Source: an uncultured Latescibacterota bacterium (GTDB lineage: Bacteria > Latescibacterota > UBA2968). Taken from it: DNA of 64,000 nt. Position numbers and translations under genes: made by a program. The stretch covers positions 1,969,339 through 2,033,338 of the forward strand of contig OX638329.1 in assembly GCA_951812755.1 (NCBI GenBank), given 5' to 3'. The notes below the pieces were generated by a model that did no database searches, was not told the DNA's origin, and saw only the letters and a program-made list of their open reading frames with translations. Shown here in pieces: positions 25,053 through 46,486 of the stretch; position 1 is the first letter of the stretch; every line of letters starts with the position of its first letter.

Positions 25053-26606
25053 ATGGACGCACCTCGCCCGAATATTTTGATTTTCCTGGTCGATGAAATG
25101 CAGTTTGACGTTACCCAACCCTCGTCACCCTGTCAGATGCCTGCCCTCCAAAAATTCGCAGAAGAAGGCGTCACTTTTACCCGGGCGTTTACACCCTCTC
25201 CTCACTGTTGCCCTTCGCGTGCAACGCTCATGACCGGTGTTTATCCCAGCAGACACGGTATATGCAACAATGTAGAAACCGATACGGCCCACCAGTTTGG
25301 TCTAAATCCAGGTGTCCGAACGTTTGCTCAGGACCTGATCAGAGCCGGATACCGGCTCTCGTATGCAGGCAAATGGCATCTGTCAAATGAAGAAACGCCG
25401 GCAGACCGCGGCTGGAATGAAGTGACCTCATTTGCAAAAAAAATTCCCCGGGGCCACAGACAGTGGGCCGGGCGCACTGCAAAACCAGTGGTACTCGATG
25501 GACCCAGAGCGCACGGACACATGGTGCGTCCCGGTTGGGGCGATCAGGTAATCAACTCGGGTTTTGTCGATGACATCTTGCAAACACACTATTATCAAAA
25601 TGCCGTGGGACCGGGCATTGAAGAGCTTCGTCGCCTGACCCAGGAAGACGATCCCTGGTGTTTGTGCATCAGCACAGACATGGGACCCAAAAGCGTGGGC
25701 GTGAGGGCGCTCTTTGAACAATACGATCCATCTACCTTTGATCTGCCTCCAAACTTCCACGACAAAATGGAAGACAAACCCAATATCTACCGTCGCATAC
25801 GGGAGCAGGTCTGGGGCCAGCTCAGTCTGGCCGAAGTGCGCGAAGACATGGCGTCTTATTTTGCCAATTGCAGCCTCGAAGACTGCTATTTTAAACGCAT
25901 CTTGCAAGCTCTCGAAGAAACCGGCAAAGCCGACGACACTCTGGTCCTGTTCATCTCAGATCACGGAGACTACAATTTTGCCCACGGCCTGCAATATATG
26001 GGCATTCCGCCTTTCCGAGAAGCCTACCACGTACCTGTTGTCGCCCGCTGGCCAGGGGGCCTCGTTGCTCCGGGCCGAACCGTCGATCACCTCGTATCGC
26101 TCTCCGACATTGCACCCACACTGATCGAACTGGCCGGGACAACACCTAAAGACGCCAAAAGCGGGCGCAGCCTGGTTCCATTTTTAAAGAACGAAACACC
26201 TTCAAACTGGCGGGACGACCTGTTTTTTCAAACCAATGGAAACGAAGTCTATTATACCCAGCGTATTGCCATGACGGATCGATATAAATATGTGTACAAC
26301 GCATTTGATTACGACGAACTCTACGACCTGGAAAAAGACCCTGGTGAATTGGTCAACCTCATCCATCCTTCCCGGTATCCACAGCCCGAGCCGTTTGCAG
26401 AAACGCCAGAACAAGACGTACATCCCTTGCCTCGAATAGCCCCGCAACTCGAACCGGTACGGCGAGAAATGATGTCTCGCATCTGGGCGTTTGCGATCCA
26501 GGAAAACGACACCATATTCAGTGGTTTTGCGCCCATTGCCGTTGCCACATACGGTCCAATGGTCGGGCTGGAATGGATGCAAGGAGATCGCAATGCGCAA
26601 ACTTAA
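25053..26606 (+). CDS. Type I sulfatase (CCPSR), no signal peptide
   Basis: 517 residues. ILIFLVDEMQ gives Asp14, H51-C52-C53-P54-S55-R56 contains the formylglycine motif C52-x-P-x-R, and FISDHGDYNFAHG is the second metal motif. No signal peptide is present. AAGGAT is the ribosome site. The last 14 bp overlap the start of the GH4 gene, so desulfation and glycoside cleavage are coupled in one operon, probably on imported sulfated oligosaccharides in the cytoplasm. It is on the opposite strand to the rest of the polysaccharide locus. Confidence 0.93.
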   Translation: MDAPRPNILIFLVDEMQFDVTQPSSPCQMPALQKFAEEGVTFTRAFTPSPHCCPSRATLMTGVYPSRHGICNNVETDTAHQFGLNPGVRTFAQDLIRAGYRLSYAGKWHLSNEETPADRGWNEVTSFAKKIPRGHRQWAGRTAKPVVLDGPRAHGHMVRPGWGDQVINSGFVDDILQTHYYQNAVGPGIEELRRLTQEDDPWCLCISTDMGPKSVGVRALFEQYDPSTFDLPPNFHDKMEDKPNIYRRIREQVWGQLSLAEVREDMASYFANCSLEDCYFKRILQALEETGKADDTLVLFISDHGDYNFAHGLQYMGIPPFREAYHVPVVARWPGGLVAPGRTVDHLVSLSDIAPTLIELAGTTPKDAKSGRSLVPFLKNETPSNWRDDLFFQTNGNEVYYTQRIAMTDRYKYVYNAFDYDELYDLEKDPGELVNLIHPSRYPQPEPFAETPEQDVHPLPRIAPQLEPVRREMMSRIWAFAIQENDTIFSGFAPIAVATYGPMVGLEWMQGDRNAQT

Positions 26607-27915: not shown

Positions 27916-27917
27916 AA

Positions 27918-27942
27918 TTGAAACATCCGGTTCCGAACCCTC
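27918..27942. repeat. 25-bp dispersed repeat, copy 2
   Basis: It matches 24842-24866 with one change. It lies between the convergent GH4 and PL22-like genes and overlaps the stop codon of the latter. Confidence 0.75.
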
Positions 27943-29101
27943 AAGGCGCTGTCCCGTTCAGCCCGACCACCAGATCCGACGGTATGGACGCCACGTGAAT
28001 CTGGGGCTGTCCGCTCAGGTCGGATGTGAACACCAGCCACCGCATATCCGGAGAGGCATAGGCGTGTGGATGCGCTTTTTTGACGAGAATCGAGGTGCGG
28101 GCGTCGCATACGACCGCATTCTTTCCCGTCTGGATGGATCCCAGAATGAGCTTGCCGGACCCCTGCCAGTCATCGGCAAAAAAGTACCGGCCACACGGAG
28201 ACGTCCCCAGGTGATTAAACCGATACCCGCGCGAGACGATTCGGGGTGGTCCCTCGGCCTTTACCCCCAGCAGATTGCCCTTTTCGGCGGTGTAGTCGCC
28301 TTCTGCAAAATACCATTCCTCGGGGCTGTGTAGTCCCCGGGCGTTTGGGGCACGGACTGTGAGCAAGATCTCATTAGTTCCCGCAATCCACGCTTCGTGT
28401 CCCACGATGCTGGGCGTATAAGGTTCTCCCACCTGTAGCCGCGTCACCTTTCCGCTCGGGATATCCAGGAGAAATTCCGTGGCACCCTGCTCCCCAAAGA
28501 TCACCGCCCGGGTACCGTCGGGCAGCACCTTGCACCCCCGGTTGTGCTGCACCATAAGCTGTTTGCCCCAGGTGGGCTCGAACTGGGTGTGTGGGTTGCA
28601 AATATCCGGATCGGTGTGGATGAGATCCCGCGTGCCAGTCTTCAAGTCCAGCAGTTCGATCCCGAACATCTGGGGTTCCAGGCTGAGGGTGACGCCATAG
28701 GCGTAGTAGCGCTCGTCGGGAGACACCGTATCCATTCCCCGATGCTGAAAATCTTCGGGAAATTCGAAAATTACCTCCCATTTGCCCGTGGCGAGATCTA
28801 CCCGCCGCAGTTCCAGGCATTTTCCTTCCCGAACGTGGCGGTAGTAAAAGATCCCGGTGTGGCTCATCCCCGGCGCCCGCAGCCCCTGTCCTACGACCTC
28901 ACGCTTCCAGGTTCCGAATTCGCAGGTCACATATTCGTTATAGTTCGGGCCGGGTTCTGGATTTTGTCGTTCGTACACGAAAATCCGGGAGTCCGCCGAG
29001 CAGTAGGGCTGTTCGCAGTAAATATTGGATTTTTCGAGTGGGTCGTCGGTAATCTGATAGACGACAGCGCCATTTGTATCTTCCTCAAGTATCCTGGGCA
29101 T
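27941..29101 (-). CDS. PL22-like oligogalacturonate lyase / TolB-type beta-propeller
   Basis: 386 residues of repeated beta-propeller blades (SPDERYYAY, SPCGRYFFADD, SPDMRWLVFTSD), like the oligogalacturonide lyases of family PL22 and related TolB-like proteins. The final blade string KKAHPHAYASPD has the paired histidines of the PL22 metal site, and QFEPTWG with HNRG lies earlier. There is no signal peptide, as expected for a cytoplasmic lyase acting on short uronides. It could also be a non-enzymatic propeller. AAGGAG is the ribosome site. It is the last gene of the minus-strand polysaccharide block. Confidence 0.8.
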   Translation of the reverse strand: MPRILEEDTNGAVVYQITDDPLEKSNIYCEQPYCSADSRIFVYERQNPEPGPNYNEYVTCEFGTWKREVVGQGLRAPGMSHTGIFYYRHVREGKCLELRRVDLATGKWEVIFEFPEDFQHRGMDTVSPDERYYAYGVTLSLEPQMFGIELLDLKTGTRDLIHTDPDICNPHTQFEPTWGKQLMVQHNRGCKVLPDGTRAVIFGEQGATEFLLDIPSGKVTRLQVGEPYTPSIVGHEAWIAGTNEILLTVRAPNARGLHSPEEWYFAEGDYTAEKGNLLGVKAEGPPRIVSRGYRFNHLGTSPCGRYFFADDWQGSGKLILGSIQTGKNAVVCDARTSILVKKAHPHAYASPDMRWLVFTSDLSGQPQIHVASIPSDLVVGLNGTAP

Positions 29102-29135
29102 AGCTGATCTCCTTCAGAATGATTTGATTGGGAGA

Positions 29136-30539
29136 TTACCCTTTGCGCCACCAGGCGTTGGCATATTTGAGATCTGGCGCAACGACGAGTTGGCGCTCCC
29201 ATTCAATAAGACGTTCCCGGTGTTCTTTTAAAACAGATACGTACTGTGGGTCGGCTGATAGATTGCGAGTTTCACCGGGGTCTTCCCGCATGTCGAAAAG
29301 CTGATCGACTTCGTCTTTAGCATAGGCGATGTATTTGTAGCGGCTGGTACGCACCATACGCCCCCGGTTGCTGTTGGATTCGCAGACGACGGCGTCATCC
29401 CAGGCAGGATCGGGTTTTGTCAACAGAGGGCGGAGGCTGCGACCACGCATGATTTCGGGTAGTGGAATGCCCGCGAAGTCGCATACAGTGGGGAAGATGT
29501 CCATCCCTGTGATGAGGTGTGAGGTATTGGTCTGATTTTGCGGCAGGTGGCCTGGCCAGGAGATGATGAAGGGTACCGCCAGTGCTTCTTCGTAGAGCGA
29601 GCTTTTGCGTACGGTTTGATGGTGGCCCATGCCTTCCCCATGATCGGATGTAAAAATGACGACGGTATCGTTGAGATGGTCTGTGTCTTCCAGCGACTGG
29701 AGAATGCGACCGATTTCGGCATCAACCATTTCGACGTGGCGATAATAGCTCCACCGATAGTAACGCCACTGCATTTCGTCCCAGTTGCCTTTGGGAGGGT
29801 CGCGTCGCTGACGGTTGCGCTTTACATAGTCGGGTTCTCGCGGGTCGTATTCAAAGTTGTCGGGCAACGGCGGTAGTTCGGATTCAAGCTCTGCGTAGCG
29901 AAGCTGATCGGGTGGGTAGGTGTTGATGCGTAGCCACTCGCAGATATCGTGCGGTTGGAGAAATGAGGCGACCATGAAAAAGGGGCGGTCAGACGTGCGA
30001 TTGTGCAGATAGGTTTCACAGGCGCGCGAAGCCGATGTGTCGCCAATATTGCCTTGCCCGCCGATGCCGGTGTTTATGACGTCGAATCCGGGGATAAAGT
30101 GCGTGAATCCCTCGGGGACGTGCCACTTGCCGGAATAAATTGTTTCGTAATCGGAATGCTGTGAAAGCCACTGTCCGAGGTTGGGGATGCCTTCACGGAT
30201 GGGGCGACCGTTGACTGGCACGCCGGTTTCGGAGGACGTGCGTCCCGAGAAAATGCAGCTTCGCGAGGGGCCACAAACCGGGTTGCCACAATAAGATTGG
30301 GTAAATAGTGTCCCTCGATTTTTCAGCTTGTCCAGTGCAGGCGTTTGGATATGGGAACAGCCTGCGGCGGATATGGTGTCAAGGTGCTGCTGGTCTGTAA
30401 GAATCAATACAATATTGGGCATTGAAGGGGCCTCGGCGGCAAAGATGCGTTTTCCCTGAGCTGTGAGCGCCAGTGTGGCGCCTCCGCTGATTTTCATGAA
30501 ATCCCGGCGGTTGATGGGTTCCTGGGTTTGTTCAAGCAT
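29136..30539 (-). CDS. Type I sulfatase (CGPSR) with Tat signal
   Basis: 467 residues. The N-terminus has a twin-arginine motif, NRRDFMK (10-16), and a hydrophobic stretch up to an Ala-rich cleavage region near residue 35, so it is exported folded. NIVLILTDQQ gives Asp49, C89-G-P-S-R93 is the formylglycine site, and FTSDHGEGMGHHQ is the second metal motif. Tat export of a formylglycine enzyme fits modification in the cytoplasm first. The ATG at 30539 is preceded by GGAGG at eight bases; a GTG at 30548 lies inside that site. It overlaps the upstream gene by 8 bp. It is the only sulfatase of five here with a leader. Confidence 0.93.
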   Translation of the reverse strand: MLEQTQEPINRRDFMKISGGATLALTAQGKRIFAAEAPSMPNIVLILTDQQHLDTISAAGCSHIQTPALDKLKNRGTLFTQSYCGNPVCGPSRSCIFSGRTSSETGVPVNGRPIREGIPNLGQWLSQHSDYETIYSGKWHVPEGFTHFIPGFDVINTGIGGQGNIGDTSASRACETYLHNRTSDRPFFMVASFLQPHDICEWLRINTYPPDQLRYAELESELPPLPDNFEYDPREPDYVKRNRQRRDPPKGNWDEMQWRYYRWSYYRHVEMVDAEIGRILQSLEDTDHLNDTVVIFTSDHGEGMGHHQTVRKSSLYEEALAVPFIISWPGHLPQNQTNTSHLITGMDIFPTVCDFAGIPLPEIMRGRSLRPLLTKPDPAWDDAVVCESNSNRGRMVRTSRYKYIAYAKDEVDQLFDMREDPGETRNLSADPQYVSVLKEHRERLIEWERQLVVAPDLKYANAWWRKG

Positions 30540-31353
30540 CGCGATCACCTCCCGCGTATTTCTTTTGACGGCGCTTAAACGCGCGTGTTTCCCGAGTTTT
30601 CTGATGTGTTAAACGCGCTTCGGCATCGTCTGATAGAATGTAAGTGCGCGCGCCGGTGGTGACCATCTGGAGACGATGGTGATCATCGAGCCAGTATTCA
30701 TACGGCAGTACACCGTGGCCGATCTGATGAAACCATTGCAGAGAATTGTTCGCACGGGTGTATAGACCGCGATAAGACAGGCGTTGATTGTACTTGTGTA
30801 CGCTTAACCCTTCGAGGATGTCAACAACAAGCGATGTTGAGGATTCGAAAGGCAATCGCTGCACTGCTTCAAATAAGCACCAATCTGCAGTGATTGGGTT
30901 GGCACCCGAAGCGATGCGCGTTCTGTTGTTGATCGTGATTTCCGCAGTCGTGCCGTTGGCTTTTCCCGTTTCTTCCAGTGTTTGCGGATCACTTTGATTG
31001 GGGGCTGTGAATTGATTGGATAGTCGCCAGGAAACAGGGCTTGCTGATAGGTCTTTCCGACAGATGATTTCTGCGGTGTACTTGTGTAGTCTGTGTTCGT
31101 CGTTGACGATTTCACGATCAACTTGCAGGCGGAAGGTGTCGTCTGTATCGGGGGATTTCGAGAGGCGCAGAAGCCCGATGTCTTCATTGCCATCTTCCCG
31201 ATAACCATGACAGGTCATGATGCGATAGGTATTGATCCACTGACCATTTGGGTCAAAGTCTGCGGGTGTTTCTGGAAATCCCTGAAGCAAATTCATGTCG
31301 CCCAGAAGATCGGGTACTAAGGGATATCCGACAATGGTGCGTTTTTTTGCCAT
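30532..31353 (-). CDS. Uncharacterised beta-rich protein in the polysaccharide operon
   Basis: Not recognised. 273 residues, mostly alternating beta-strand patterns: DTFRLQVDREIVN, HKYTAEIICRKD, LSYRGLYTR, LPYEYWLDDHHRLQMVTTGARTYIL. The C-terminus is basic (RRQKKYAGG). There is no signal peptide or membrane segment. The start has GAGGAG nine bases upstream. It lies 12 bp after the GH-A hydrolase gene and overlaps the Tat sulfatase by 8 bp, so it is expected to act in the same pathway. Confidence 0.75.
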   Translation of the reverse strand: MAKKRTIVGYPLVPDLLGDMNLLQGFPETPADFDPNGQWINTYRIMTCHGYREDGNEDIGLLRLSKSPDTDDTFRLQVDREIVNDEHRLHKYTAEIICRKDLSASPVSWRLSNQFTAPNQSDPQTLEETGKANGTTAEITINNRTRIASGANPITADWCLFEAVQRLPFESSTSLVVDILEGLSVHKYNQRLSYRGLYTRANNSLQWFHQIGHGVLPYEYWLDDHHRLQMVTTGARTYILSDDAEARLTHQKTRETRAFKRRQKKYAGGDRDA

Positions 31354-31365
31354 GGGACATACTCC

Positions 31366-32826
31366 TCAATTTTTAGAAGTGCGACTATCAAAATAGGATG
31401 TTAGGGGATAAACCTGAGCGTTAATTTCTTTTGCTTTATCCACAAGATCCACAAAAGGCTCATACCGAATGCTTAAAAAACCCTTATTGGATCCGTTGGG
31501 CAAATCTTTTGTATCGCGATAAGTATGCCAGAACCAGCCGATACAGAATTTGGATTCCAGCAGCCCCAGGGTGAAGTTCTGATAAAATCGTCCGCGATCA
31601 GCCTGAGACTTGACCACGCCACCTGCCCCATCTGTATTTTTATAGCCGGAATCCTCTCCTTTTACATACCACTCACTAATGACAAATGGTTTATCCCCAG
31701 ACCAGGTGTTCCAATTTTTTAATTCCGATGTTCTGGGTGTCCAACGATGATAATAATTCACCGAAATGACATCGGCATATTCGCCTAAAGCTTCAAATAC
31801 CGGCTTGAGACGAATGGCCTGCCCGTGCAAACGCGATCCCAAAAAGAGATGATTGGGGTCGCGGTCCTTGAGCACTTTAGATACAATGCCAAAATATAAC
31901 CTGGCAATATACACCAGAAATTTTTTCTGCTCATCAGAAGTCACACTTGATTTGAGCGTATCGATGTCAACATTTTGCGACTGAAGGTTTCTCTCTTTTT
32001 TTATCCATTCAAATGCCTTTTTAAAGTTGATATCCGATTGCTCCAGGCTGAGATACCGGGTCAAGGCATCCTCTCGCCAGGGTAGTTCATTATCTACAAA
32101 ATATCCCAACAGTGTCGGGTCGTGTATCATCTCATCTGTGATCTTTTCTTTTACTCGATCCCTGCAAAATGCTTCAAACTCAGGATCAAAAATTGGGATA
32201 CAATGATTTTGGAACTGCATGTTGTTTGCATTTGATTTTGCCCCATATCGCCTGCCAAAAGGATACATCATATAAATGACCGTTGCCCATGCCTGCGGTT
32301 TGTTGTGTTGTGTTTTTAAAAGTAAAGGATCACTCCAGGTGCCAACCACATTGAATCTGTTTGTTCTCAAAAAATCAACGGTCTCATAAGCCCAGGCCTC
32401 GGGTTTTCCCCATCGGCGTTCAAAAACAGGTGGTGCTGTCACGCTCCTGTCTTTTGCTGCGCCCCACCGGATGGAATTGAGTGCTGTGCAAAAAAACAGA
32501 TATCCATCTGGATCTACAAACCACCAGCGATCGTCTATCTTCTGGGTACGAAAAAATCCTGTGCCCTCAATTTTTCGATCTGCCCACCCGCCATAAGGAC
32601 TGAGTTGTACCTCAACTTGAGGCGTATAGTCCGGTAGCATACTCAAAAGACGTGTTGCACGTGGTCGATAAGATCCAAATATGCGCTCTCCTCTATAAAG
32701 CCGCATCCGCATATCTACCATCACATGCTGATTGGGGTCGTCTTTCCACGATTGAGCATATAGATCTGTCACACTACCCAATATCAATATTCCAATCAGA
32801 ACCATACAGGTAACAATTTCACTCAT
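31366..32826 (-). CDS. Clan GH-A glycoside hydrolase, agarase/GH50-like
   Basis: 486 residues with a signal peptide ending near Ala24-Gln25 (DLYAQ). The N-terminal string GFFRTQKIDDRWWFVDPDGYLFF is shared, in my recollection, with beta-agarase-like GH50 and related proteins. Y-F-V-D-N246-E247 fits the Asn-Glu acid/base pair and FVISE385W the nucleophile of a (beta/alpha)8 retaining hydrolase. The substrate is unproven; a beta-linked galactan or other marine polysaccharide is plausible. I start at the ATG at 32826 (GGAG eight bases before); the longer frame would overlap the enolase gene and bury the leader. Confidence 0.8.
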   Translation of the reverse strand: MSEIVTCMVLIGILILGSVTDLYAQSWKDDPNQHVMVDMRMRLYRGERIFGSYRPRATRLLSMLPDYTPQVEVQLSPYGGWADRKIEGTGFFRTQKIDDRWWFVDPDGYLFFCTALNSIRWGAAKDRSVTAPPVFERRWGKPEAWAYETVDFLRTNRFNVVGTWSDPLLLKTQHNKPQAWATVIYMMYPFGRRYGAKSNANNMQFQNHCIPIFDPEFEAFCRDRVKEKITDEMIHDPTLLGYFVDNELPWREDALTRYLSLEQSDINFKKAFEWIKKERNLQSQNVDIDTLKSSVTSDEQKKFLVYIARLYFGIVSKVLKDRDPNHLFLGSRLHGQAIRLKPVFEALGEYADVISVNYYHRWTPRTSELKNWNTWSGDKPFVISEWYVKGEDSGYKNTDGAGGVVKSQADRGRFYQNFTLGLLESKFCIGWFWHTYRDTKDLPNGSNKGFLSIRYEPFVDLVDKAKEINAQVYPLTSYFDSRTSKN

Positions 32827-32857
32827 GCAGTTGTCTCCAGGCTGTTCACTGTTTCGC

Positions 32858-34009
32858 TTATGGTTCAATCAGATTGTCGTTAATATAGTCCCAGTTGAAA
32901 TCAAATCCCAGACCTGGTAGTTGGGGGAGGATGACATTGCCGTCGTCATCCAGGGGATCTACAATGGAATTCAAATAGGGTGGCGGGGTTTCGTAGTCGA
33001 AGTCGGGGCGCAAGAGGCCGCGTTCATAGTATTCACAGGTTGCTTCTGTTGTTGCGCCCAGGATTTGACAGTTTGCCCATCCGCCATAGTGCATTTCGCA
33101 CTGAATGCCGAAGGCCTGTGCCACATTCACCATTTTGTAGGATCCCGTGATGCCGCCATAATTGTGATCGATGCGCAGCATGTCGGATGCACCCTGAAGC
33201 ACCCATTCGGCGCGCGTGAAGACACCGCCGGGAATGTGTTCGGGTGAGAGAATGGCGATGTCCAGTTCGCGTGTCAATCGTCGGTATGCTTCTGTTCGCG
33301 TTTCTACCATGGGATGTTCCAGCCAGTAGTAATTCAGTTTTTCCAGTTCGCGGCCGACCCAAAGCGATTGCTCTAAAGTATAGACGCCAAAGGGATCTAA
33401 CATCAAGACCATGTCGTCGCCGACAGCTTCGCGCACGGCTTTGCATACTTCCACGTCTTCTTTGGGGAATCCGGGAACTTGAGGGGCAGGTTCCCAGGTG
33501 TGTGGGTTCCAGCAGATGTACGCGTGAACTTTGTATGCTTTGTATCCCTGTTTTTTGCACTCGAGTGCATGTTCGGCATAATCTTCTGGTTTGCCGATGT
33601 TGGGATAGGTGCTGGCATAAGCTTTTACTTTGTCGCGAGCACCACCGAGGATTTTGTGTACGGGCAGGTCAACCATTCTGCCCAGCAGGTCCCAAAGGGC
33701 GCAATCGACTGCGCCCATAACATGCTCGGGCAAGCTGTGACCGAAAGTGACGAGTTGGTCCATCCAGTTCCAGATGGTTTCACGGGATAGGGGATCTTCG
33801 CCGATTAACATGCGCTTGATCGGGCCTTCGAGGTATCGGCGGTCGCCACCGATCATATACCCTTCGAGACCTTCGTCTGTTACGATTTTGAAGATCGAGC
33901 TTGCCGACTCTTTTTGTTCTTCTCCCCAGACGCCGTAGCCCCACTTACTCGGTCGAGACCTGCCGCCTGGCGTGCGGAATGTAATCACTTCGATGTCTGT
34001 AATTTTCAT
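32858..34009 (-). CDS. Enolase-superfamily dehydratase (mandelate racemase group)
   Basis: 383 residues with an N-terminal capping domain and a C-terminal barrel. K160-V-H162 sits at the first acid/base position, D205, E231 and E257 are the three Mg ligands, and H307 is the general base on the far strand. These features fit sugar-acid dehydratases, which convert aldonic or uronic acids to 2-keto-3-deoxy sugars, a normal step after uronide release. The ATG at 34009 follows GAGG; a TTG at 34021 lies before it. It sits 31 bp before the GH-A hydrolase gene. Confidence 0.88.
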   Translation of the reverse strand: MKITDIEVITFRTPGGRSRPSKWGYGVWGEEQKESASSIFKIVTDEGLEGYMIGGDRRYLEGPIKRMLIGEDPLSRETIWNWMDQLVTFGHSLPEHVMGAVDCALWDLLGRMVDLPVHKILGGARDKVKAYASTYPNIGKPEDYAEHALECKKQGYKAYKVHAYICWNPHTWEPAPQVPGFPKEDVEVCKAVREAVGDDMVLMLDPFGVYTLEQSLWVGRELEKLNYYWLEHPMVETRTEAYRRLTRELDIAILSPEHIPGGVFTRAEWVLQGASDMLRIDHNYGGITGSYKMVNVAQAFGIQCEMHYGGWANCQILGATTEATCEYYERGLLRPDFDYETPPPYLNSIVDPLDDDGNVILPQLPGLGFDFNWDYINDNLIEP

Positions 34010-34062
34010 GGGGGTCCTCAATTCAAAAGATGAAAAGGAACACAGATTGTTCGCGATGTTTC

Positions 34063-34096
34063 AATTTAGCTTCTTATGCTGAAAAATCAAGAATAA
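34063..34096. repeat. 34-bp dispersed repeat, copy 1
   Basis: It shares 30 of 34 positions with 58934-58967, including TTAGCTTCTTAT and AAAAATCAAG. It lies between DUF6785 copy 2 and the dehydratase gene; the other copy is in the tRNA island, 24.9 kb away. Confidence 0.7.
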
Positions 34097-34106
34097 GCGG
34101 ATATCT

Positions 34107-36128
34107 CTACCAGGTATGGATCCAGTGACCTCCCTCGGGAAACCAGATGAGGTCCACGATGGAGGATGCGACGATGCCAGCGACATACCCCACCGTGATA
34201 CCGATAAAGAAAGGGGCAGCGCGGCGGTAGAGTGCGATCCCTCCGATACGCAGCAGGATGAGTTTCGCTGCCCAGGTGAGGAATAGCGAAAAAGAATAGA
34301 ATCGCAGGCCACGTGTGTCCTGAAAGGCCAGCCCGAGCGGGTGAATTGGCCACCAGGGAAGACGGTTGCGCAGGAGAATCAGGAGACCTGCCTGGAGGCC
34401 CCCGAACAGCCAGACGATCATTTTGCCAGGATCGAAAACAGTGCGATCGACGTGAAGGATGTCTGATCGCATCGCGTTGTAGGAACCGACGGGACCTGCG
34501 CTCGAGCTGAATGGAGCAAGATGAAGGTTCTGTCCGCCGTAATGATAGGCGATATAGATGATGGAGACGAATGAGGCGGTCATACCGATGACAAAGGCCA
34601 GCAAAGCCAGGCCAGAGAGGCGGGCAGGTGTTCTGGTTTGTCCGCCGAGAAGCTTGAAGTGGTGGGGTAGCGCGGGCCACGCCGGTACGCGAGCGTTACC
34701 AAAGAAACCGCAGGAGTTCACCAAGCCGATTCCGATGAGGTCTTTCCGGTCCAGATGCGCTGTGCCGACAAAGCTTGTCAGCAGTTCCCCGCCTTTGGCT
34801 CCATAGGGATTGGTGGTGGGGGAAAAGAGGTGGGTGAACCCGGTGGCAGCGGTGAATTTGGCCACGGTGAAGTAGGCAATATAGAGCAGGAGTGTGTGAA
34901 ACACAGCAATCGGATAGGCCATGCCAATGGCATGCATCCACCCGATGATGTAAATTGTGGCGGCAAAAAACGCGATCAGTACAGCACGATAGCGCCTCCC
35001 ATCACCCGCTATGAGGTTACCAGTGCGCGCCGACTGCCATACATGGTGGAGATGCTCCCGTGTCGCCCAGACCGACCATATTACGATCAGAACCATAGCA
35101 CCGTGGCTTTCGATCTCGATGATCTGTTCGGGTCGAGCCTGCTGGCCCGCCATGCCGACGGTGAAGCCCGTCCGGTTCATCATGCCCAGTTTCAGGGTGG
35201 CAAGAAGTCGGATAGCCCAGAAACTGAACAGAATATCGAGATCGCAGAAGTATGTGAGTCCCACGACGGAAGGCAGGATGCGAATGGGGATGAACGGGTA
35301 GCCTTTGGCGATCTCTATCTGTTTGCTTCCGATGCCGCCATAGATGCCCAGAGGCGGTAGTTCGTGAAGGAAATAGCCCGCGATATTGTATAGAATGACG
35401 CCGAACACAGCGAAGAATCCTGCCCAGAAGATCTTTTTTTTGAAGATGGCAGGCACGCGGTCGTGTCCGTCGAACCCCGAAGTCAGGTAGATAGCGAACT
35501 GTCCGAGAGGATATGTCAGGCGCTCGGCGTCCTCCCACTGCCGCTGGAAGAGCATGCAGAGGCAGACTCCCGCGGTAAACAGGGCGATGGATACGGACCC
35601 CCACCAGAACATGGGTTTGATCCACCCGATCCAGGGGAGAGCCATACCTGGAGAAAGACCGTCGAAGAAAGGTCGAATGACGCCCGTATCTGTGTCTGTA
35701 AACGCCCACCAGGGAATAGCGCTGAAAAGGACCTCTTGCCACTGGTTCTCGGGAGACGCGTAATAGGTCGGGGTCGAGACGATAGTGGACCAGTAGGCTG
35801 CCCAGCCTTCAAGGGCAATGCCGGAGGAGATCCAGGACATACAGTAGATGACCAGAAGCTCTCTGCCGCTGAGGGCGGTGGAAGGTAAGAAGGCTTTCAG
35901 AAAGATATTTACAAAGAGCCAGAGGAAGAAGGGAATCAGCATCGCCATGGGGTACTGTGACTTTACCAGAGCGGAAGATCCCATGACCAGGCCTGCGTGA
36001 TTGGTATAGATGTGCAGGGCAACGATGGTGACCACACCCAGGAAGACAGAGCGAAGCGTGATGCGAGCCGGCCTGGGGACTTCGACGTTTTCTGTCGGAC
36101 TTATCCTCGGTGTATCCAGTGCTGACAT
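34107..36128 (-). CDS. DUF6785-type polytopic membrane protein, copy 2
   Basis: 673 residues with many hydrophobic helices starting near residue 25. Shared family strings are YYASPENQWQ, IPWWAF, GMALPWIGWIKPMFWWG, RQW-x-x-AERLTYPLGQ and a C-terminus ending WFPEGGHWIHTW. The sequence suggests an integral inner-membrane protein, perhaps a transporter of the oligopeptide-transporter type. It lies between the heparinase-like lyase and the sugar-acid dehydratase genes, where a sugar importer would be expected (inference). Confidence 0.87.
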   Translation of the reverse strand: MSALDTPRISPTENVEVPRPARITLRSVFLGVVTIVALHIYTNHAGLVMGSSALVKSQYPMAMLIPFFLWLFVNIFLKAFLPSTALSGRELLVIYCMSWISSGIALEGWAAYWSTIVSTPTYYASPENQWQEVLFSAIPWWAFTDTDTGVIRPFFDGLSPGMALPWIGWIKPMFWWGSVSIALFTAGVCLCMLFQRQWEDAERLTYPLGQFAIYLTSGFDGHDRVPAIFKKKIFWAGFFAVFGVILYNIAGYFLHELPPLGIYGGIGSKQIEIAKGYPFIPIRILPSVVGLTYFCDLDILFSFWAIRLLATLKLGMMNRTGFTVGMAGQQARPEQIIEIESHGAMVLIVIWSVWATREHLHHVWQSARTGNLIAGDGRRYRAVLIAFFAATIYIIGWMHAIGMAYPIAVFHTLLLYIAYFTVAKFTAATGFTHLFSPTTNPYGAKGGELLTSFVGTAHLDRKDLIGIGLVNSCGFFGNARVPAWPALPHHFKLLGGQTRTPARLSGLALLAFVIGMTASFVSIIYIAYHYGGQNLHLAPFSSSAGPVGSYNAMRSDILHVDRTVFDPGKMIVWLFGGLQAGLLILLRNRLPWWPIHPLGLAFQDTRGLRFYSFSLFLTWAAKLILLRIGGIALYRRAAPFFIGITVGYVAGIVASSIVDLIWFPEGGHWIHTW

Positions 36129-36221
36129 CTGTAATTCCCGTTGGCTGGATCGGTGCGTACCTATCAGACGATAAACGATTCCCTGAGATTGTGCTGTCCG
36201 GAAAGGGGTTGCTGGAGAGTC

Positions 36222-38249: not shown

Positions 38250-38296
38250 TTCATCTCCTCAGATTGCCAGTTGTTTTCGACCTCGGCGAAAAAAGA

Positions 38297-38357
38297 AAAG
38301 CCTCCTTCGTTCAGATCTTGGCACTACACCAAACATCCATCAAGCTAAGGAGGCTTT
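38297..38357 (-). terminator. Terminator-like hairpin after the PorV gene
   Basis: Perfect 11-bp stem AAAGCCTCCTT (38297-38307) / AAGGAGGCTTT (38347-38357) with a 39-nt loop. Reading the minus strand, the stem is followed by TTCTTTTTTC. It ends the TonB/sort-domain/PorV transcription unit before the lyase gene. Confidence 0.65.
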
Positions 38358-38444
38358 CATAAGGAATATGGACTTATCTCTATTCAGTGATCGGGAGACT
38401 CACAGTTAGTTTCGTATTGACGGTGGTATTGTCCCAGGTCTGGT

Positions 38445-39422
38445 TCAAAATGCAACTCCCACTGAAAACCGGCTCACACTGTCGAAAAATTCGTTCCTGG
38501 TAAAGGAATAATCGACCAGGACCTGCGTATCGCCGATACGTTGCTTCACGCCGGCTCCCGCGGTCAGGCTTTCCATATCGTGATTGAACTTGTAGCCAAC
38601 CCGCAGTGCCAGCATTTCCTGAAACCAGTATTCTCCGCCCAGGTAAATCCGCTCGCTGAAATCGCGCGGGTGGATGGCGTCGAATGCCAGAGACAGAGAA
38701 TGTGAGGGGGAGTCAAGGAGTTCCATTGCGGCACCGATATGGAATGTCAGGGGAAGCTGAAAGCCGATCTTCTGGTATTCGATTTCTGACGAGAAGTTCC
38801 GAATGTAGATCCCCAGTCTCAGGTTTTTCAACCCGGTGTAGTAGATGGTCCCAAACGTGAAGTTTATCGCATCCGCTTTATTATCAACGGCCACGTTGGA
38901 TGTCCCCACGGGTGAGATTGTGCTTGAGCCCAGGTGCTCGGACACATACTTGATTTGGCCCCCGATGAAGAACTTGTTTGTCAACTGCTTGGAATAAGCA
39001 AGTCCCGCAAAATAGGCCCCCACGTCGATGCTTCCTGTCTCGGTAAATCCCTTCTCGTTCCCGGCGACCTGCGTCCCGATCAATTCACCGTAATTGACAG
39101 CGCCGAAGTTCACTGCAAAAATCCCGTGAGATGTCTTGTAGGCAGTCCCCAGCGCCGTATAGTTGATGTCCGCGATCCACTGAACTCGGTGTGCGACCAT
39201 CTGGATCTTAGAGTCCATGCGGGCCATGCCTGCCGGATTGTAGAACATGGCATCGGCACCGTCACCTACCATCGAATACGCCCCGCCCATTGCCTCCGCC
39301 CGCGCACTGAGACCAATCTTCAAAAATTGAAACCCCGTCTGGGCCAGTTTCTTCTTCTGAGCCTGGACAGGTGTAAACAGGCACAACAGCAGTATCAGAG
39401 TTAAACCCATACATTTTTTCAT
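38445..39422 (-). CDS. PorV/PorQ family outer-membrane barrel protein, copy A
   Basis: 325 residues with a signal peptide (MKKCMGLTLILLLCLFTPV, ending at QA/Q). The family string GFQFLKIGLSARAEAMGGAYSMV and the following ADAMFYNPAGMAR identify PorV/PorQ (UPF0164) barrels, which in Bacteroidota help type IX secretion. The homologue at 51984-52976 keeps FLKIGQGARPVGMGEAF and NAAFWNPAGL. AAGGAG lies seven bases before the ATG at 39422. It is last of three genes after the TonB receptor and the 711-aa protein. Its real role outside Bacteroidota is unproven. Confidence 0.9.
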   Translation of the reverse strand: MKKCMGLTLILLLCLFTPVQAQKKKLAQTGFQFLKIGLSARAEAMGGAYSMVGDGADAMFYNPAGMARMDSKIQMVAHRVQWIADINYTALGTAYKTSHGIFAVNFGAVNYGELIGTQVAGNEKGFTETGSIDVGAYFAGLAYSKQLTNKFFIGGQIKYVSEHLGSSTISPVGTSNVAVDNKADAINFTFGTIYYTGLKNLRLGIYIRNFSSEIEYQKIGFQLPLTFHIGAAMELLDSPSHSLSLAFDAIHPRDFSERIYLGGEYWFQEMLALRVGYKFNHDMESLTAGAGVKQRIGDTQVLVDYSFTRNEFFDSVSRFSVGVAF

Positions 39423-39450
39423 TGTATTTCTCCTTATCCGAGACCGTCGA

Positions 39451-41586
39451 TCACCTGACGATAACGAATTTGACAAAGCTGGATTCTCCGCTTGGTATCT
39501 CTACATGCGCGATATAGACGCCGCTGACAACGATCTGCCTGGTTTCGGTCGTCAAATCGCTCCAGGGTTCATCCCCCGAACCGTCCGTGTGCTCCAGGAC
39601 TTTGACCAGGTCTCCGCTTAGAGTGAAGATACGGATTGTACATTCTGGCGGCAGCCCTGCGAACAGGATCTTGTCATTTTCTCCTGGGAACTGGAGTCCT
39701 GCCTCTGCTGCCGTAATATTGTAGGGATTGGGCACGACTCTGATATCGGCCAATGTATTCCCTGGTGCCCGTGTCAGAGAGACCGGTTCCGTCGTTCGGT
39801 TATACAGGATGCCGCTTTCGACGCTCTCGCCGGATCGAAGTCCATTCTCGACGCCCGGCTGATTCTGCGACCCATCGTCAAACGCTGTGACAGCGTAATA
39901 ATAAGAAACGCCCCGCTGGGCGGTGATGTCGTCAAACGAGTGGACGCTGTTTCCCAGAGACTCGTGGATCACCGTGAACGTCGTGTCGGGACTCCCAATC
40001 GCTCGATACACCCTGTATCCGGCAAAGTCGGATGCAGATTCGGATTCGGATCCCCACAAAATCTGGACCTTATCCGGGCGCCCCCATACCTCGATGGATG
40101 GCGGCGGCGGAGCCTTGGGGACGTTGTAATTGTGTCGTACGGCCCACTCCGCGTTATAGATGTTCTGGAACAGAGAGTCCTTACCCGTGGCGACCCAGTT
40201 GTCTTTGGCGCGATCGACCGCCGTCGGAATGAGATCCGGGAACGCCTGGCCCACGGGCGGGATCTTGTCTTCGCCTTCCCAGGTCAGCGTTCCGTTTTTC
40301 CATCTTCGTCCGATATCCCATCTCATTTCGCGGGAGAGGGAGCCACCGACAACGGCGAACACCACCCGGAAATCATCTCCGGCCTTCACTTCGTCGAACG
40401 GTCCCAAAGACATATAGATGGCCCCACGTCCCTTTGTCGCATCTTGCACCCATTTGATATTTCGCTCATCCATCCGAGACTGGTAGCGCACACGGCCCTC
40501 GGAGGGGACGTTAAGGCCGAAGTAGTAAGCCTTCTGGCCCTCCACCAGTTCGGGAAAACCGTAGTGGAAGGAGCTGTATTCCAGTTCGGTCACCGTTGGA
40601 TCGTCCTGGTCATGCTGTTTGGAGGTGGTGTATTTCTGCAGTCCGGATGCAAACATGTGCGGCTGCTCTCGGTCGTCGGTAGGATCGTCAACAGATTTGT
40701 CAACGTGCAGAATGGCGATGCCAACGTAAGATGGTTCCTTGATAAACCCCGTCGTCTGATCGGGATTTCCGAAGGTGTCGTATTGCTGGCCCCTGTTCCA
40801 GGCGGGATAATTGTAGGCGACCCGTAGCGAATCGCCTTCCTGTTCTCCATACGTTGTGCTCCATCCGAAATTCCCCATATCCTGATTGACCCATGCAGCG
40901 AGGGCAAAATATACGCCATTCAGGGTCTGGGCGGGCAGATCCACCTGTATCCCGGACGAAGTCGTGTACTGGCCTGTGGTATTCTTGAAAGTCCAGTCAT
41001 AAAGCACATAGTCGTCGTGGTTGACCTGCGAAAAAACGAACACCTTCTGATGGATCGTGATCCCGACCGAGGTTCGAATCCAGGATTCGATTAACTGATC
41101 AGCGCCTTTTCCCCCATTCGAATCGATATAGTCTGGATTGACTTCATCCCCTTCCAATGGAAAGAAGGGCTGGATGGGAGCACCCTGAACGGATATAGAT
41201 GGAGGCTGGAACCTTACATATCTTCTAATCGTAAACCCATCTACATCGACAGGCATATTGTCAAAGGCCTCTTCGCCGTTATAGACGCTCGTACCGCTGG
41301 TCTTGAAGCCCCAGGTGGCACCCCTCTCATCGGTCCAGTCCCTAACCGCAACCCTCCACGCGATATTCTCCATGAATCGGTTTCCATTGTAGTAGAATTG
41401 TCGATATGATCCAAGCGGCCTGGACATATCGCCGGAATCGAAAATGGCGCTCCACATTCGCCCGATTCTCACCCACTTGAACACATCTGCCCGGGCAGTA
41501 TTGTCGAGGATCAGGAAGGCAATCAATCCCAAAACGATCGCCACGAGTGCCTTCGGGATCCTTATCCTTTTCACTGAATATTTCAT
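39451..41586 (-). CDS. Large secreted protein with sort-type C-terminal domain, copy A
   Basis: 711 residues. A signal peptide (1-33) leads to a long beta-rich region with no named domain, a fibronectin-III-like stretch (about 500-590, with FAGYRVYRAIG and SYYYAVTAFDDGSQ), and a C-terminal module. The module starts VVPNPY, contains TIRIFTLSGDLVKVLEH and ends KFVIVR, the pattern of type IX sorting/FlgD-like domains. It is a homologue of the protein at 49643-51970, with the same neighbours in the same order. It is probably surface-exposed, perhaps a glycan-binding partner of the receptor (inference). Located 41 bp after the receptor gene. Confidence 0.85.
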   Translation of the reverse strand: MKYSVKRIRIPKALVAIVLGLIAFLILDNTARADVFKWVRIGRMWSAIFDSGDMSRPLGSYRQFYYNGNRFMENIAWRVAVRDWTDERGATWGFKTSGTSVYNGEEAFDNMPVDVDGFTIRRYVRFQPPSISVQGAPIQPFFPLEGDEVNPDYIDSNGGKGADQLIESWIRTSVGITIHQKVFVFSQVNHDDYVLYDWTFKNTTGQYTTSSGIQVDLPAQTLNGVYFALAAWVNQDMGNFGWSTTYGEQEGDSLRVAYNYPAWNRGQQYDTFGNPDQTTGFIKEPSYVGIAILHVDKSVDDPTDDREQPHMFASGLQKYTTSKQHDQDDPTVTELEYSSFHYGFPELVEGQKAYYFGLNVPSEGRVRYQSRMDERNIKWVQDATKGRGAIYMSLGPFDEVKAGDDFRVVFAVVGGSLSREMRWDIGRRWKNGTLTWEGEDKIPPVGQAFPDLIPTAVDRAKDNWVATGKDSLFQNIYNAEWAVRHNYNVPKAPPPPSIEVWGRPDKVQILWGSESESASDFAGYRVYRAIGSPDTTFTVIHESLGNSVHSFDDITAQRGVSYYYAVTAFDDGSQNQPGVENGLRSGESVESGILYNRTTEPVSLTRAPGNTLADIRVVPNPYNITAAEAGLQFPGENDKILFAGLPPECTIRIFTLSGDLVKVLEHTDGSGDEPWSDLTTETRQIVVSGVYIAHVEIPSGESSFVKFVIVR

Positions 41587-41627
41587 GGCTTTTCCTTCCT
41601 CTTAACTGTCAGACACAGAACAGCTTT

Positions 41628-44591
41628 TTAAAAACTCACCTTGATCCCGAAAAAGATATCTCTCGGAGGCAAGAAGGTCGCGCTTTCTGCGTTCGGCATT
41701 ATGATATGGCTGTCCTCTCCTCCGATGGCCCCCATCCTGTCGTTCCCCACCGGATTTTCGTAGGCCGGAGATTCGGGCAGGTTCAAGGATGTCATATAGT
41801 CCTCCCTGTCGGAGGTGCTGACAAAACCCGCGTTCCCATTGAAGTATTTCTGGTTGAACAGATTCGTAATATCCACAAACAGGCCGACATCTACTCCTCT
41901 CGCCACGAAGTCTTTGGATATTCGCGCGTTCCAGTTCGAATAGTTCTCCCACTGGAGGTTGTTCTGGATGCCTGGAACCTGGTTTGGATTGTAGGTGATC
42001 CAGCCCCCGGCTCTCCAGTTGTAGAAGAGGCTGAATCGAAATCTCTCCAGCGGCTTGAATCCAGCCACTTCTGGTCCGGAATCCGGCGGCACCAGGAGCA
42101 TCACATTCGCCCGGAATGAGGGCCGAGTTTTAGGCCTGCTCTGGTATGGGTTCTGTAGGCCAAAAAGCCTGTGTTGAACCGGGTCCTCGTAGTAGTTCCG
42201 GCGCCCGATAAACCCACTGGTCAGGACCATATAGTTGTAGTTCGCCCATCCTGTGAACCACTGTCCCACGCTTTTATCCACTCTAATTTCGAAACCCCTG
42301 ATGTCCGCGTAGTTGTTGTTTTCAACGGTGGTATAGACCACGCTTCCATCTACATTGTTGTAGGTGACATTGCCAGCCTGGTCGGCGACATCCTTATAGT
42401 ATCCGGCCAGATGAATGAGCACCGTATTGAACAGATTGTGGTCATACCCCAGTTCATAAGCGATGGTTCGTTCCCACTCTGTGCTCGGGTTGCCCAGATA
42501 GGTTATCTTGCCCGGAAAACTCCTCCGAACGCCGTAGTAATTCTCTGTTCTGGGTATGCTGTAGAAGTGACCGTAGTTGAAATAGATTTTCGAATTCACT
42601 GTGATGGGGTGCGATACGCCCAGCCGTGGGCTGAATTTGAGGTGGCTCTCGGCCGGCTCCGTGGGAACGACTTCCTCAAAGTCATCCTGGTATTTCGCCG
42701 TCAGGAATTTGGAATAGCGATCCACTGAATACCAGTCTGTGGCGGGCGTGGCATAATCCATACGAACCCCAATATTCGCGATCATGCCCTCCACCTCCAG
42801 CTTGTCCTGGGCGTACGCGCTGAACCGTTTGGGGATCTTTTCGTACGTGTTGATCCAGGTGTAGGGTGTGATGCCCGGGTTGTAGATGGCATTCCAGACC
42901 GCCATGTCGTTATAGACATAGTGAAATCCTGCTTTGGCCTGATTGTAACGGTCGATCTGGCTGGTGATATCCGCCCGGATATTCGTGGTCGTAACAATCG
43001 AGCTGTCACGAGCCGTCGAAAGATGCATGCCCATACGCATTCCGTCCTGGGCTTCAATTGAATCAAACCACAAACCCAGCGGTGCTTCATCTACCATCAT
43101 TGGACCGAACTGGTATTGCAGCGTGCGGTCCCTGATGGGCAGGGCAGTCGTACGGTACTCGGATTCCATCCGATCTACCCTGAGGTTGTAGAAAGTAGAT
43201 CTGCCCAGCGTGTGTGTGAGTACGAAACCCAACGAGGTCCTCTTGAGGCTGAACAGAGAAAACCTGGATGGTGTATAGATCGTCGCGCCGCTATAGCTGG
43301 CCGCGTCCGCCAGTGCCTCGATGGCGTTGTCGTAATAGAGCCCTGTGTTGCCGTCTGCGACCGACTCGATATTGCTATATCCTCCGACAGCAGTGAGTTT
43401 CATTGATGGGATGATATTCAGAATCAGCTTCAGCGTCGAGTTGTCTTCTCGATGGTTGTCCCTTGACATCGGATAGGGATAGATATTGATATCCGTACGG
43501 TGTGATGCAAAGAAGCTCAGCCTCCTACTGGCGGGAATCAGCGGTCCTCCGATACTCGCGTCTCCAATATGGTCCGCTTTGTCCCCATCCTTCAAAGGGC
43601 GTGGTCCTCCTTCGGCGAATTTTCTGAACATAAATAGCTGCTGGGCTTCTTGGGGCGACATGTCATTTGAGGGATCGTCATCTTCTGTATATCGCCTGGC
43701 TATTTCATTCCAGCCTACAAACTGCCTTTCCTGCAGCTGGGTTGCCTCGTCCCACTTGCCCGTACCTTCAAAGGCAACCTCAGGATCGAGAAAAGCCCGT
43801 AGATAGTAGTTATCTGCGCTATACCATGAGGGTCCGAAATGCTTTTTGGCAGGTGGGCTGTACCGATAATCAACCGACCCGTGGTAACGGTCCTGGGCAG
43901 ATTTTGTGATCACGTTGATCACACCTGATCTCACGTTCCCGTATTCTGCATTGAATCCACCGGTGATAATCGAGATCTCCTGCACGGCACTCAGGTTGAG
44001 GGAGGTCAGCGTGGGCCTGTTCACCCGTTCATCCACCATCAGGATGCCATCTACCATCATCGCGACCTGGTTTTGCCCACCCCCTCGGACCACCATATTC
44101 TCGATTCCCGGCTGCGTGTTCAGGAACTGCTCGACTTTCACAACCGCAGGGATCTCCCTCACCTGCTCACCCTGGATAATTACCTCGCTGGCCGAAACGT
44201 CCATTTGGACCACTTCCCTTTCAGCCATTACCGTGATCTCCTGTCCCACTATACTACTAACTTGCAATGAGAAGTTGACAGGAACCGTACGTCGTCCCTG
44301 CACCAGCACGTCCGTTTTGCTCACAGTGGTGTATCCGACCATGGATACCCGGACCACATGCTTGCCCGGTGAAACGTTCAGGATGTTGTAAACGCCTTCC
44401 ACATCGGTGGAAGCTCCTGATGATGTACCTTCGATGATCACGTTCGCCCCCGGTAGGGGCTCTCCGGTCTCCGCGTCTGTGACGACACCGCGGACTTTAC
44501 CTGTCTCTTGGGCTAACAGGTCTCCCTGCACGAGGAAGAGCGAAAGCGCAATGCTAAGTAGCGGTAGAAACCATCTTCTTGTCCGTTCCAT
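41628..44591 (-). CDS. TonB-dependent receptor with carboxypeptidase-regulatory-like domain, copy A
   Basis: 987 residues. Signal peptide (1-27), CarboxypepD_reg-like domain (about 31-110, GEPLPGANVIIEGTSSGASTD), then the plug with EFLN-like QFLNTQPGIENMVVRGG and GGFNAEYGNVRSGVINVITK, then a 22-strand-type barrel ending GIKVSF. This is the SusC-like/TonB-receptor layout used for import of oligosaccharides or large nutrients across the outer membrane. AGGAG is the ribosome site. It is the first gene of its operon, preceded by a very AT-rich upstream region. Confidence 0.93.
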   Translation of the reverse strand: MERTRRWFLPLLSIALSLFLVQGDLLAQETGKVRGVVTDAETGEPLPGANVIIEGTSSGASTDVEGVYNILNVSPGKHVVRVSMVGYTTVSKTDVLVQGRRTVPVNFSLQVSSIVGQEITVMAEREVVQMDVSASEVIIQGEQVREIPAVVKVEQFLNTQPGIENMVVRGGGQNQVAMMVDGILMVDERVNRPTLTSLNLSAVQEISIITGGFNAEYGNVRSGVINVITKSAQDRYHGSVDYRYSPPAKKHFGPSWYSADNYYLRAFLDPEVAFEGTGKWDEATQLQERQFVGWNEIARRYTEDDDPSNDMSPQEAQQLFMFRKFAEGGPRPLKDGDKADHIGDASIGGPLIPASRRLSFFASHRTDINIYPYPMSRDNHREDNSTLKLILNIIPSMKLTAVGGYSNIESVADGNTGLYYDNAIEALADAASYSGATIYTPSRFSLFSLKRTSLGFVLTHTLGRSTFYNLRVDRMESEYRTTALPIRDRTLQYQFGPMMVDEAPLGLWFDSIEAQDGMRMGMHLSTARDSSIVTTTNIRADITSQIDRYNQAKAGFHYVYNDMAVWNAIYNPGITPYTWINTYEKIPKRFSAYAQDKLEVEGMIANIGVRMDYATPATDWYSVDRYSKFLTAKYQDDFEEVVPTEPAESHLKFSPRLGVSHPITVNSKIYFNYGHFYSIPRTENYYGVRRSFPGKITYLGNPSTEWERTIAYELGYDHNLFNTVLIHLAGYYKDVADQAGNVTYNNVDGSVVYTTVENNNYADIRGFEIRVDKSVGQWFTGWANYNYMVLTSGFIGRRNYYEDPVQHRLFGLQNPYQSRPKTRPSFRANVMLLVPPDSGPEVAGFKPLERFRFSLFYNWRAGGWITYNPNQVPGIQNNLQWENYSNWNARISKDFVARGVDVGLFVDITNLFNQKYFNGNAGFVSTSDREDYMTSLNLPESPAYENPVGNDRMGAIGGEDSHIIMPNAESATFLPPRDIFFGIKVSF

Positions 44592-45636: not shown

Positions 45637-45772
45637 GTTGTGTATTGCTTGTACCACAAGTAGCTGAGTGTATAGGTATTTCAGGCTGTTCGGCTTCGTT
45701 CCCTTCAGCGCACATCTCGCAAGTCGAATAACCGCGGGAAATTCAGGCCTATCACCAAAAGGAGGGATGCTT

Positions 45773-46486
45773 ATGCGATTCAAAAACATGCGACTTACCG
45801 CAGTGCTCCTGCTTGTACTCCTGCTGTCTCCAGCGATACCCGCTTTGGCTCAGGATAGCCAATGGGGTCTGGGGACAAATCTTAGCTATTCTCTGCCGGT
45901 GCTGGGCCTCAGAAGCTGGTTCACTCAGGGCCCCGAACTGGGCGTTATGTTGCTCTATAACTACACCTCCAGAACCGAGCTGGAAGTGGAATATCACCAT
46001 GTTCGTTTCAACGGTGGGAGTCTGGAGGAACGAACCTTCATGTGGGCGCCGACGGGGACCACGGATCGAAGTCCATACGGCAGCCCGAACGCGCAGTCCC
46101 GGATGCGAATAAACAGCTACCTGGTCAATGGGATTTTTTACCTGGACCAGAGGCAATCCGGCAGCGGATGGGCGCCGTATTTTAGCTTCGGGAGCGGTTT
46201 TTACCACTACCGGACGCGTGAGACGGGGCTCATCTTTCCCGGCCAGACAGGGGATGCGCTGGACTCGACACTCGTGTTGGAGCCGGATGGGGACTCAAGA
46301 GCGGCTCTGGGGATCAGCCTCGGGCTTGGAGTTGGACTTTTCGTGTCCGAGCGAGCGACCATCGATTTCCGCGGCCGGTATAACGTGATGCTGGGTCAAC
46401 TGCGGCCGATGAAGGCGTGGGGGTTAGAGGAGGTATTTCCATTTCAGATATTGGACTTCGGCATTCGGATCAAAATGTATCTTTAG
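45773..46486 (+). CDS. Outer-membrane beta-barrel-like protein
   Basis: 237 residues. A signal peptide (MRFKNMRLTAVLLLVLLLSP..., cleavage after PALA) is followed by alternating aromatic and polar strands (TELEVEYHHVRF, WAPYFSFGSGFYHYR, FVSERATIDFRGRYNVML) ending with FGIRIKMYL, typical of an 8-strand OmpA/OmpW-like barrel. I start at the ATG at 45773, seven bases after GGAGG. It lies 63 bp upstream of the second TonB receptor and is probably its first operon gene. There is no counterpart in the copy A locus. Confidence 0.8.
   Translation: MRFKNMRLTAVLLLVLLLSPAIPALAQDSQWGLGTNLSYSLPVLGLRSWFTQGPELGVMLLYNYTSRTELEVEYHHVRFNGGSLEERTFMWAPTGTTDRSPYGSPNAQSRMRINSYLVNGIFYLDQRQSGSGWAPYFSFGSGFYHYRTRETGLIFPGQTGDALDSTLVLEPDGDSRAALGISLGLGVGLFVSERATIDFRGRYNVMLGQLRPMKAWGLEEVFPFQILDFGIRIKMYL

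Follow-up and report, generated by a model that had tools for sequence, protein, structure and literature searches.

A probable SusD-less polysaccharide-utilisation operon with its own outer-membrane cassette in Candidatus Latescibacterota

How might a bacterium import an acidic polysaccharide if the locus that carries the enzymes encodes a TonB-dependent receptor but no SusD? The question is raised by a stretch of 64,000 nucleotides (here called the window) from the genome of an uncultured Latescibacterota bacterium, which comprises 6.53 Mb in a single contig. The initial annotation had described one contiguous polysaccharide-utilisation-like block for a sulfated uronic glycan. Every gene that it named was found again at its position (Table 1). 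The genes are indeed contiguous, but they form two units. Ten tightly spaced genes, with gaps or overlaps of -26 to 195 bp, occupy the minus strand from 44591 down to 27941, in the order TonB receptor, 711-aa surface protein, PorV/PorQ-family barrel, PL17-like lyase, DUF6785/6784 protein, dehydratase, GH50-like enzyme, 273-aa protein, TAT sulfatase and PL22-like protein. A sulfatase and GH4 pair on the plus strand (25053-27915) converges on this run. In scans for promoters and terminators, the number of sites did not exceed that in shuffled sequences. Our reading, which we hold to be probable though by no means assured, is that the locus is an accessory, SusD-less polysaccharide-utilisation operon of Candidatus Latescibacterota, which combines an outer-membrane cassette with a DUF6785 inner-membrane carrier.

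Table 1. Genes of the locus and of the neighbouring second cassette, with positions in the window.
Feature	Position	Strand	Basis
TonB-dependent receptor, 987 aa, CarboxypepD_reg N-terminal domain and plug	41628..44591	-	Pfam Plug, CarbopepD_reg; first operon gene
Secreted surface protein, 711 aa: N-terminal part without known family, Fn3-like, T9SS-type C-terminal domain	39451..41586	-	
PorV/PorQ-family outer-membrane beta-barrel, 343 aa; likely ATG start 39422	38445..39476	-	NF033709
PL17-like (heparinase II/III superfamily) putative uronate lyase, 675 aa	36222..38249	-	PDB matches, catalytic residues
DUF6785/DUF6784 polytopic membrane protein	34107..36128	-	PF20581, PF20580, hydrophobic segments
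Enolase-superfamily sugar-acid dehydratase (gluconate/galactonate/arabinonate dehydratase-like)	32858..34021	-	MR_MLE domains
GH50-like hydrolase, 500 aa, signal peptide-like N-terminus	31366..32868	-	5t3b, 4bq2 matches
273-aa protein, family unassigned, no signal peptide seen	30532..31353	-	Kept in G034 operon at 94.5%
S1-type sulfatase, TAT signal, formylglycine motif C92-G-P-S-R	29136..30548	-	PF00884 E 1e-47, TAT_signal E 5e-4
PL22-like beta-propeller protein, no signal peptide seen	27941..29101	-	PF14583 below cut-off, profile match 3pe7
Sulfatase without signal peptide, C52-C-P-S-R motif	25053..26606	+	Motif; absent at site in G034
GH4-family NAD-dependent glycosidase, overlaps sulfatase gene	26593..27915	+	PF02056 E 9e-47; absent at site in G034
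Second cassette: outer-membrane protein of about 250 aa, receptor 1037 aa, surface protein 775 aa, PorV paralogue 330 aa, DUF6785, PhyH oxygenase	45668..56164	+	

The first three genes of the run encode proteins of the outer membrane and cell surface. The gene of the 711-aa protein lies 41 bp behind that of the receptor. This protein had been described as carrying a sort domain. The VVPNP-type motif at its C-terminus is invariant or nearly so in 20 paralogues, whereas its score with the T9SS C-terminal domain model TIGR04183 (16.9 bits) stays below the cut-off of 23, and five other paralogues have no NCBIfam match at E 0.01. An AlphaFold model, built on a shallow alignment of window and related-locus sequences, reached a mean pLDDT of 26. 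The third protein, previously taken for a second surface protein, is a barrel of the PorV/PorQ family: it scores 190.1 bits with NF033709 (cut-off 90), and a further barrel scores 155.5 bits. The barrels recognised by this model remain under the cut-offs for PorV and PorQ proper. Moreover, a profile of 21 barrel paralogues matched the solved PorV of the SprA complex (6h3i_F, E 9e-27). The SprA translocon is encoded once in the genome, in a frame of 2087 aa (PF14349, E 2e-26).

Many paralogues of the surface protein and of the PorV-like barrel are encoded in the genome, in adjacent pairs, and upstream of each pair stands a receptor from one related group. In all 21 cassettes of the source genome whose sequence was read, the receptor gene comes first, followed on the same strand by those for the surface protein and PorV, and neighbouring genes are -26 to 244 bp apart. 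The pairwise distances of the three proteins co-vary (r 0.89-0.91, a value reached by none of 5000 shuffles), at median identities among the cassette paralogues of 24 to 32%. Hence, the three proteins have been kept together over a long divergence. The same triplet is present in 19 of 20 loci around surface-protein matches in families f1, f2 and f4, the twentieth lacking only a recognised PorV, and family f3 contains at least one further cassette. The profile of the surface protein matches 59 of the 60 genomes of our phylum sample, strongly in the order of the window and in f4, and weakly elsewhere. Most of the 21 receptor genes are directly preceded by an optional fourth member, a protein of 230-272 aa that weakly resembles an outer-membrane beta-barrel; it is found, for example, at 45668-46486 of the window, and the cassette at 38445-44591 is without it.

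The lyase had been annotated as a heparinase II/III enzyme, a view that we revise. It is better matched by PL17 alginate lyases (9irq, E 4e-14; 4ok4, E 1e-11) than by heparinase III (4mmi, E only 1e-3), and the catalytic set of PL17 is kept: Tyr295, His443, Asn235 and His234 align with Tyr258, His413, Asn201 and His200 of 4NEI (Alg17c), which serve as base or acid and as neutralising residues (PMC12088678). With the curated oligoalginate lyase model NF042990 it scores 44 of 1400 bits. No signal peptide was seen at its N-terminus, so the lyase is probably cytoplasmic.

The hydrolase earlier termed GH-A and agarase-like can be placed more exactly as GH50-like, with matches to 5t3b (E 1e-51 over 424 residues) and 4bq2 (E 4e-34). 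In an alignment with the 4bq2 chain, its Glu261 and Glu399 fall on Glu491 and Glu652, the catalytic pair of Aga50D. Both sulfatases carry the C/S-x-P-x-R motif, as CGPSR in the enzyme of the ten-gene run and as CCPSR in that of the convergent pair. For the protein designated a PL22-like oligouronide lyase, the similarity to PL22 is present, but it is weak and mostly C-terminal. The protein scores 21.7 of the 30 bits required by PF14583, and a three-sequence profile reached the oligogalacturonate lyase 3pe7 (E 2e-7) with the C-terminus only. The dehydratase matches NF040790 with an E value of 3e-34, below the equivalog cut-off. The 273-aa protein gave no Pfam or NCBIfam match and no credible match in the PDB. 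Elsewhere in the window (6069-11350 and 21533-22255), three more sulfatase genes accompany a D-glutamate cyclase-like gene, and there is a sulfotransferase gene as well.

The gene proposed to encode a membrane carrier is present, and its product belongs to the family DUF6785/DUF6784 (PF20581, E 1e-82, 278 bits at a cut-off of 25; PF20580, E 2e-19). It is the only polytopic membrane protein of the unit. DUF6785 is encoded 49 times in the source genome and was found in 55 of the 60 genomes of the phylum, often in at least 21 copies; it was found neither in family f6 of this sample nor in 14 well-known control genomes. Behind six of the 21 cassettes, a DUF6785 gene lies on the same strand within 300 bp downstream of PorV (random mean 0.02, maximum 1 in 3000 trials), and loci of f1, f2 and f4 have it at the corresponding position. 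Many other DUF6785 genes are far from any cassette. No match among solved structures was obtained, and an AlphaFold model based on a shallow alignment had a mean pLDDT of 39. From its position and from the logic of the operon, we propose that this protein is an inner-membrane carrier: trimming in the periplasm followed by a lyase step in the cytoplasm would call for a carrier of oligosaccharides across the inner membrane.

A general link of DUF6785 to sulfatases, dehydratases or PhyH oxygenases was also considered and found to be unsupported when genes more than 7 kb away served as reference. Sulfatases were counted in 5 neighbouring and 3 distant genes of 80 each, and PhyH in 4 and 4. Catabolic families as a whole are thus not clearly commoner beside DUF6785 than at a distance, which speaks against the proposed role. 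Only the cassette and TPR proteins stand out, the latter with 12 of 80 beside DUF6785 and about one among the distant genes. A family of TPR proteins of about 820 aa, with 17 members in the loci read, recurs beside cassettes or DUF6785 genes (L028:11319-13775, L036:13881-16319 and L027:572-3445).

Related genomes, those named here being metagenome-assembled, show which of the genes belong together. Spacing and order of the operon are conserved in two sister genomes, G034 and G020, with identities of 91-98%. G034 keeps the receptor, surface protein, PorV, lyase, DUF6785 protein, GH50-like enzyme, 273-aa protein, sulfatase and PL22-like protein at 91-97%, and it lacks the dehydratase, the plus-strand sulfatase/GH4 pair and the second cassette at this site. 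The order is kept in G020 down to the dehydratase gene, where the contig ends. Within the genus, the lyase and the eight-gene core are found in three of eleven genomes, and among contiguous relatives the core is either completely present or completely absent. In four congeners (G002, G012, G016 and G024), the PL22-like gene is the direct neighbour of the dehydratase gene beside trmD, and none of the other eight genes separates them. Since these two genes stand there alone in congeners without the block, they are residents of the site, and the accessory unit consists of the other eight. The block is therefore composite and not the single locus that had been claimed, the more so as the GH4/sulfatase pair is absent from G034.

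The region beside trmD varies between the genomes. In a further relative (G025), a defence-like island of about 15 kb lies between the dehydratase gene and trmD instead, and for this reason the site may be an insertion hotspot. The island (L179:5142-18123) encodes an S8 peptidase, an AAA ATPase, a large helicase, a PLD-domain protein and a DUF6361 protein. The second cassette of the window (45668-56164) has a GC content of 0.605, compared with 0.48-0.54 in the rest of the window; from this value and its absence in G034, it was probably acquired on its own.

Could the locus nevertheless be a canonical Sus-type system whose SusD, strongly diverged, is the 711-aa protein? The protein stands next to the receptor, where SusD would be expected; this position, pointed out already in the initial annotation, proved to be general, being kept in every one of the 21 cassettes here and in 19 of the 20 loci from related genomes. 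We rejected this explanation as very improbable, since the protein has no SusD match in the Pfam search, it ends in a putative T9SS-type sorting domain that is conserved in the paralogues, and the receptor scores 56.6 bits with the SusC/RagA model TIGR04056, below its cut-off of 368.25. Moreover, a profile of the 20 surface-protein paralogues found only an Fn3-like match in the PDB (E 0.004), and a recognisable SusD, the only one of the genome, stands elsewhere (5690146). The reported absence of SusD from the locus is thus confirmed, and in the phylum SusD occurs in 13 of 60 genomes, never in more than one copy. Another explanation would leave the enzymes to a separate glycan pathway and see in the cassette a general system for the uptake of peptides, metals or lipids that merely lies beside carbohydrate genes. 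Other cassettes do adjoin M20 and M14 peptidases, a phosphotriesterase and multihaem cytochromes, and DUF6785 follows directly after the cassette in only about 6-7 of 21 cases. However, the genes for the cassette, lyase, DUF6785 protein, GH50-like enzyme, 273-aa protein and sulfatase lie close together and have been gained or lost as one among relatives. In addition, a GH50-like gene and a sulfatase gene come after one related cassette, and a third is preceded by a heparinase-like gene and DUF6785, so that we consider a chance neighbourhood unlikely. The neighbours of the other cassettes suggest that some of them serve something other than glycans. As the cassette is hence not specific for glycans, it is best seen as a general importer, of which the locus at 27941-44591 is the glycan version.

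The nature of the glycan is a separate matter. The lyase carries a Hepar_II_III_C domain, its fold and catalytic triplet are common to broad glycosaminoglycan and alginate lyases (PMC12088678), and a study of sponge-associated genomes mentions Latescibacterota (PMC8163846), all of which would agree with an activity on glycosaminoglycans of host or sponge type instead of an algal polyuronate. We judge such a substrate to be rather improbable: the closest relatives of the lyase with solved structures are PL17 alginate lyases, albeit at low sequence similarity, and the histidine associated with alginate lyases is kept (His234, corresponding to His200 of 4NEI). Judged from the encoded enzymes, the substrate is probably an acidic and probably sulfated sugar polymer. 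The lyase, with its residues of the alginate-lyase type, suggests a uronic-acid polymer, and the formylglycine motif of the sulfatase in the operon suggests a sulfated one; to this extent the sulfated uronic glycan proposed earlier is supported, whereas the GH50-like enzyme points to a galactan. The enzyme families indicate different substrates (alginate-like, agar-like and pectin-like), and no known polymer is singled out. With at least 152 sulfatase matches (PF00884) in the 6.53-Mb genome, a sulfatase beside any gene is weak evidence by itself. A position inside a conserved operon, unlike mere nearness, is not.

We return to the accessory SusD-less operon, for which the following course of uptake can be envisaged. 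The surface protein would leave the cell through the type IX secretion system, and its own partner of the PorV/PorQ type would keep it at the outer membrane beside the TonB receptor. There it may bind the acidic oligosaccharide and hand it over to the receptor. From their motifs and signals, the TAT sulfatase and the GH50-like enzyme are predicted to act in the periplasm and to trim the oligosaccharide there, which DUF6785/6784 would then move across the inner membrane. In the cytoplasm, the PL17-like lyase, to judge by its catalytic residues and the lack of a signal peptide, would free an unsaturated uronic acid, and the resident sugar-acid dehydratase and PL22-like enzymes may process this product further. 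A wider reading, put forward tentatively and with more doubt than belief, is that a new class of importer, made up of receptor, T9SS-type surface protein and private PorV, has largely replaced SusC/SusD in Latescibacterota. PorV would then serve as a permanent anchor, keeping the surface protein in place as a lid over the receptor, and DUF6785/6784 would be a new family of inner-membrane carriers to which the imported compound is passed on.

The SusD-less, PUL-like character assigned to the locus at the outset is supported. As in the SusC/SusD loci of Bacteroidota, a receptor of the CarboxypepD_reg type, an adjacent surface protein, glycan enzymes and a sulfatase lie in one run. In contrast to those loci, there is neither a SusD partner nor a SusC-family receptor, the surface protein has a putative T9SS-type C-terminal domain and its own PorV/PorQ barrel, and DUF6785 is the likely inner-membrane carrier. 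The combination of a putative cargo with a T9SS-type C-terminal domain, a barrel of the PorV family and a single SprA resembles the type IX system, in which PorV shuttles cargo from SprA to the cell surface (PMC8564354). Unlike a housekeeping PorV that serves all cargo, however, at least 21 PorV paralogues are each found beside one cargo and one receptor. The dedicated, permanent anchor proposed here would be new. Alginate loci with a PL17 oligoalginate lyase share the catalytic residues of that family, but the present lyase is only remotely similar in sequence, has no signal peptide and is joined in the operon by the GH50-like enzyme and a sulfatase. The latter enzyme resembles the agarolytic GH50 enzymes of the Aga50D and 5t3b type in fold family, as seen by sequence, and in both catalytic glutamates, and differs from them in being a single-domain candidate in an operon with a putative uronate lyase.

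An earlier study of Latescibacteria described algal polysaccharide degradation and sulfatases in the same phylum; it linked the plug-domain receptors to vitamin B12 and iron, had sugars enter through non-specific porins, and mentions neither SusD nor type IX (PMC4454575). In the open-access papers that our search covered, we found no precedent for DUF6785, for Latescibacter together with SusD, or for PorV together with TonB receptors. If our reading is correct, it revises the published view of sugar entry in the phylum. A candidate phylum rich in sulfatases would then import large compounds via a set of proteins that escapes standard PUL finders, since these search for SusC/SusD pairs. Moreover, PorV-type barrels could be dedicated to single cargo proteins, and the expanded DUF6785 family, with 49 copies in one genome and members in 55 of 60 genomes, would gain a specific and testable role.

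Some further arrangements were seen around the cassettes. At L025:5528-8113, the gene for an 861-aa protein with DUF4962 and heparinase II/III domains immediately precedes a DUF6785 gene and another cassette; this may be a second such lyase locus. Multihaem cytochrome genes lie next to cassettes at L067:14953-19004 and L035:13530-15746. The only SusD-like gene of the source genome (C1:5686315-5690565) follows a TonB receptor gene, so that one SusC/D-like pair exists beside the 21 SusD-less cassettes.
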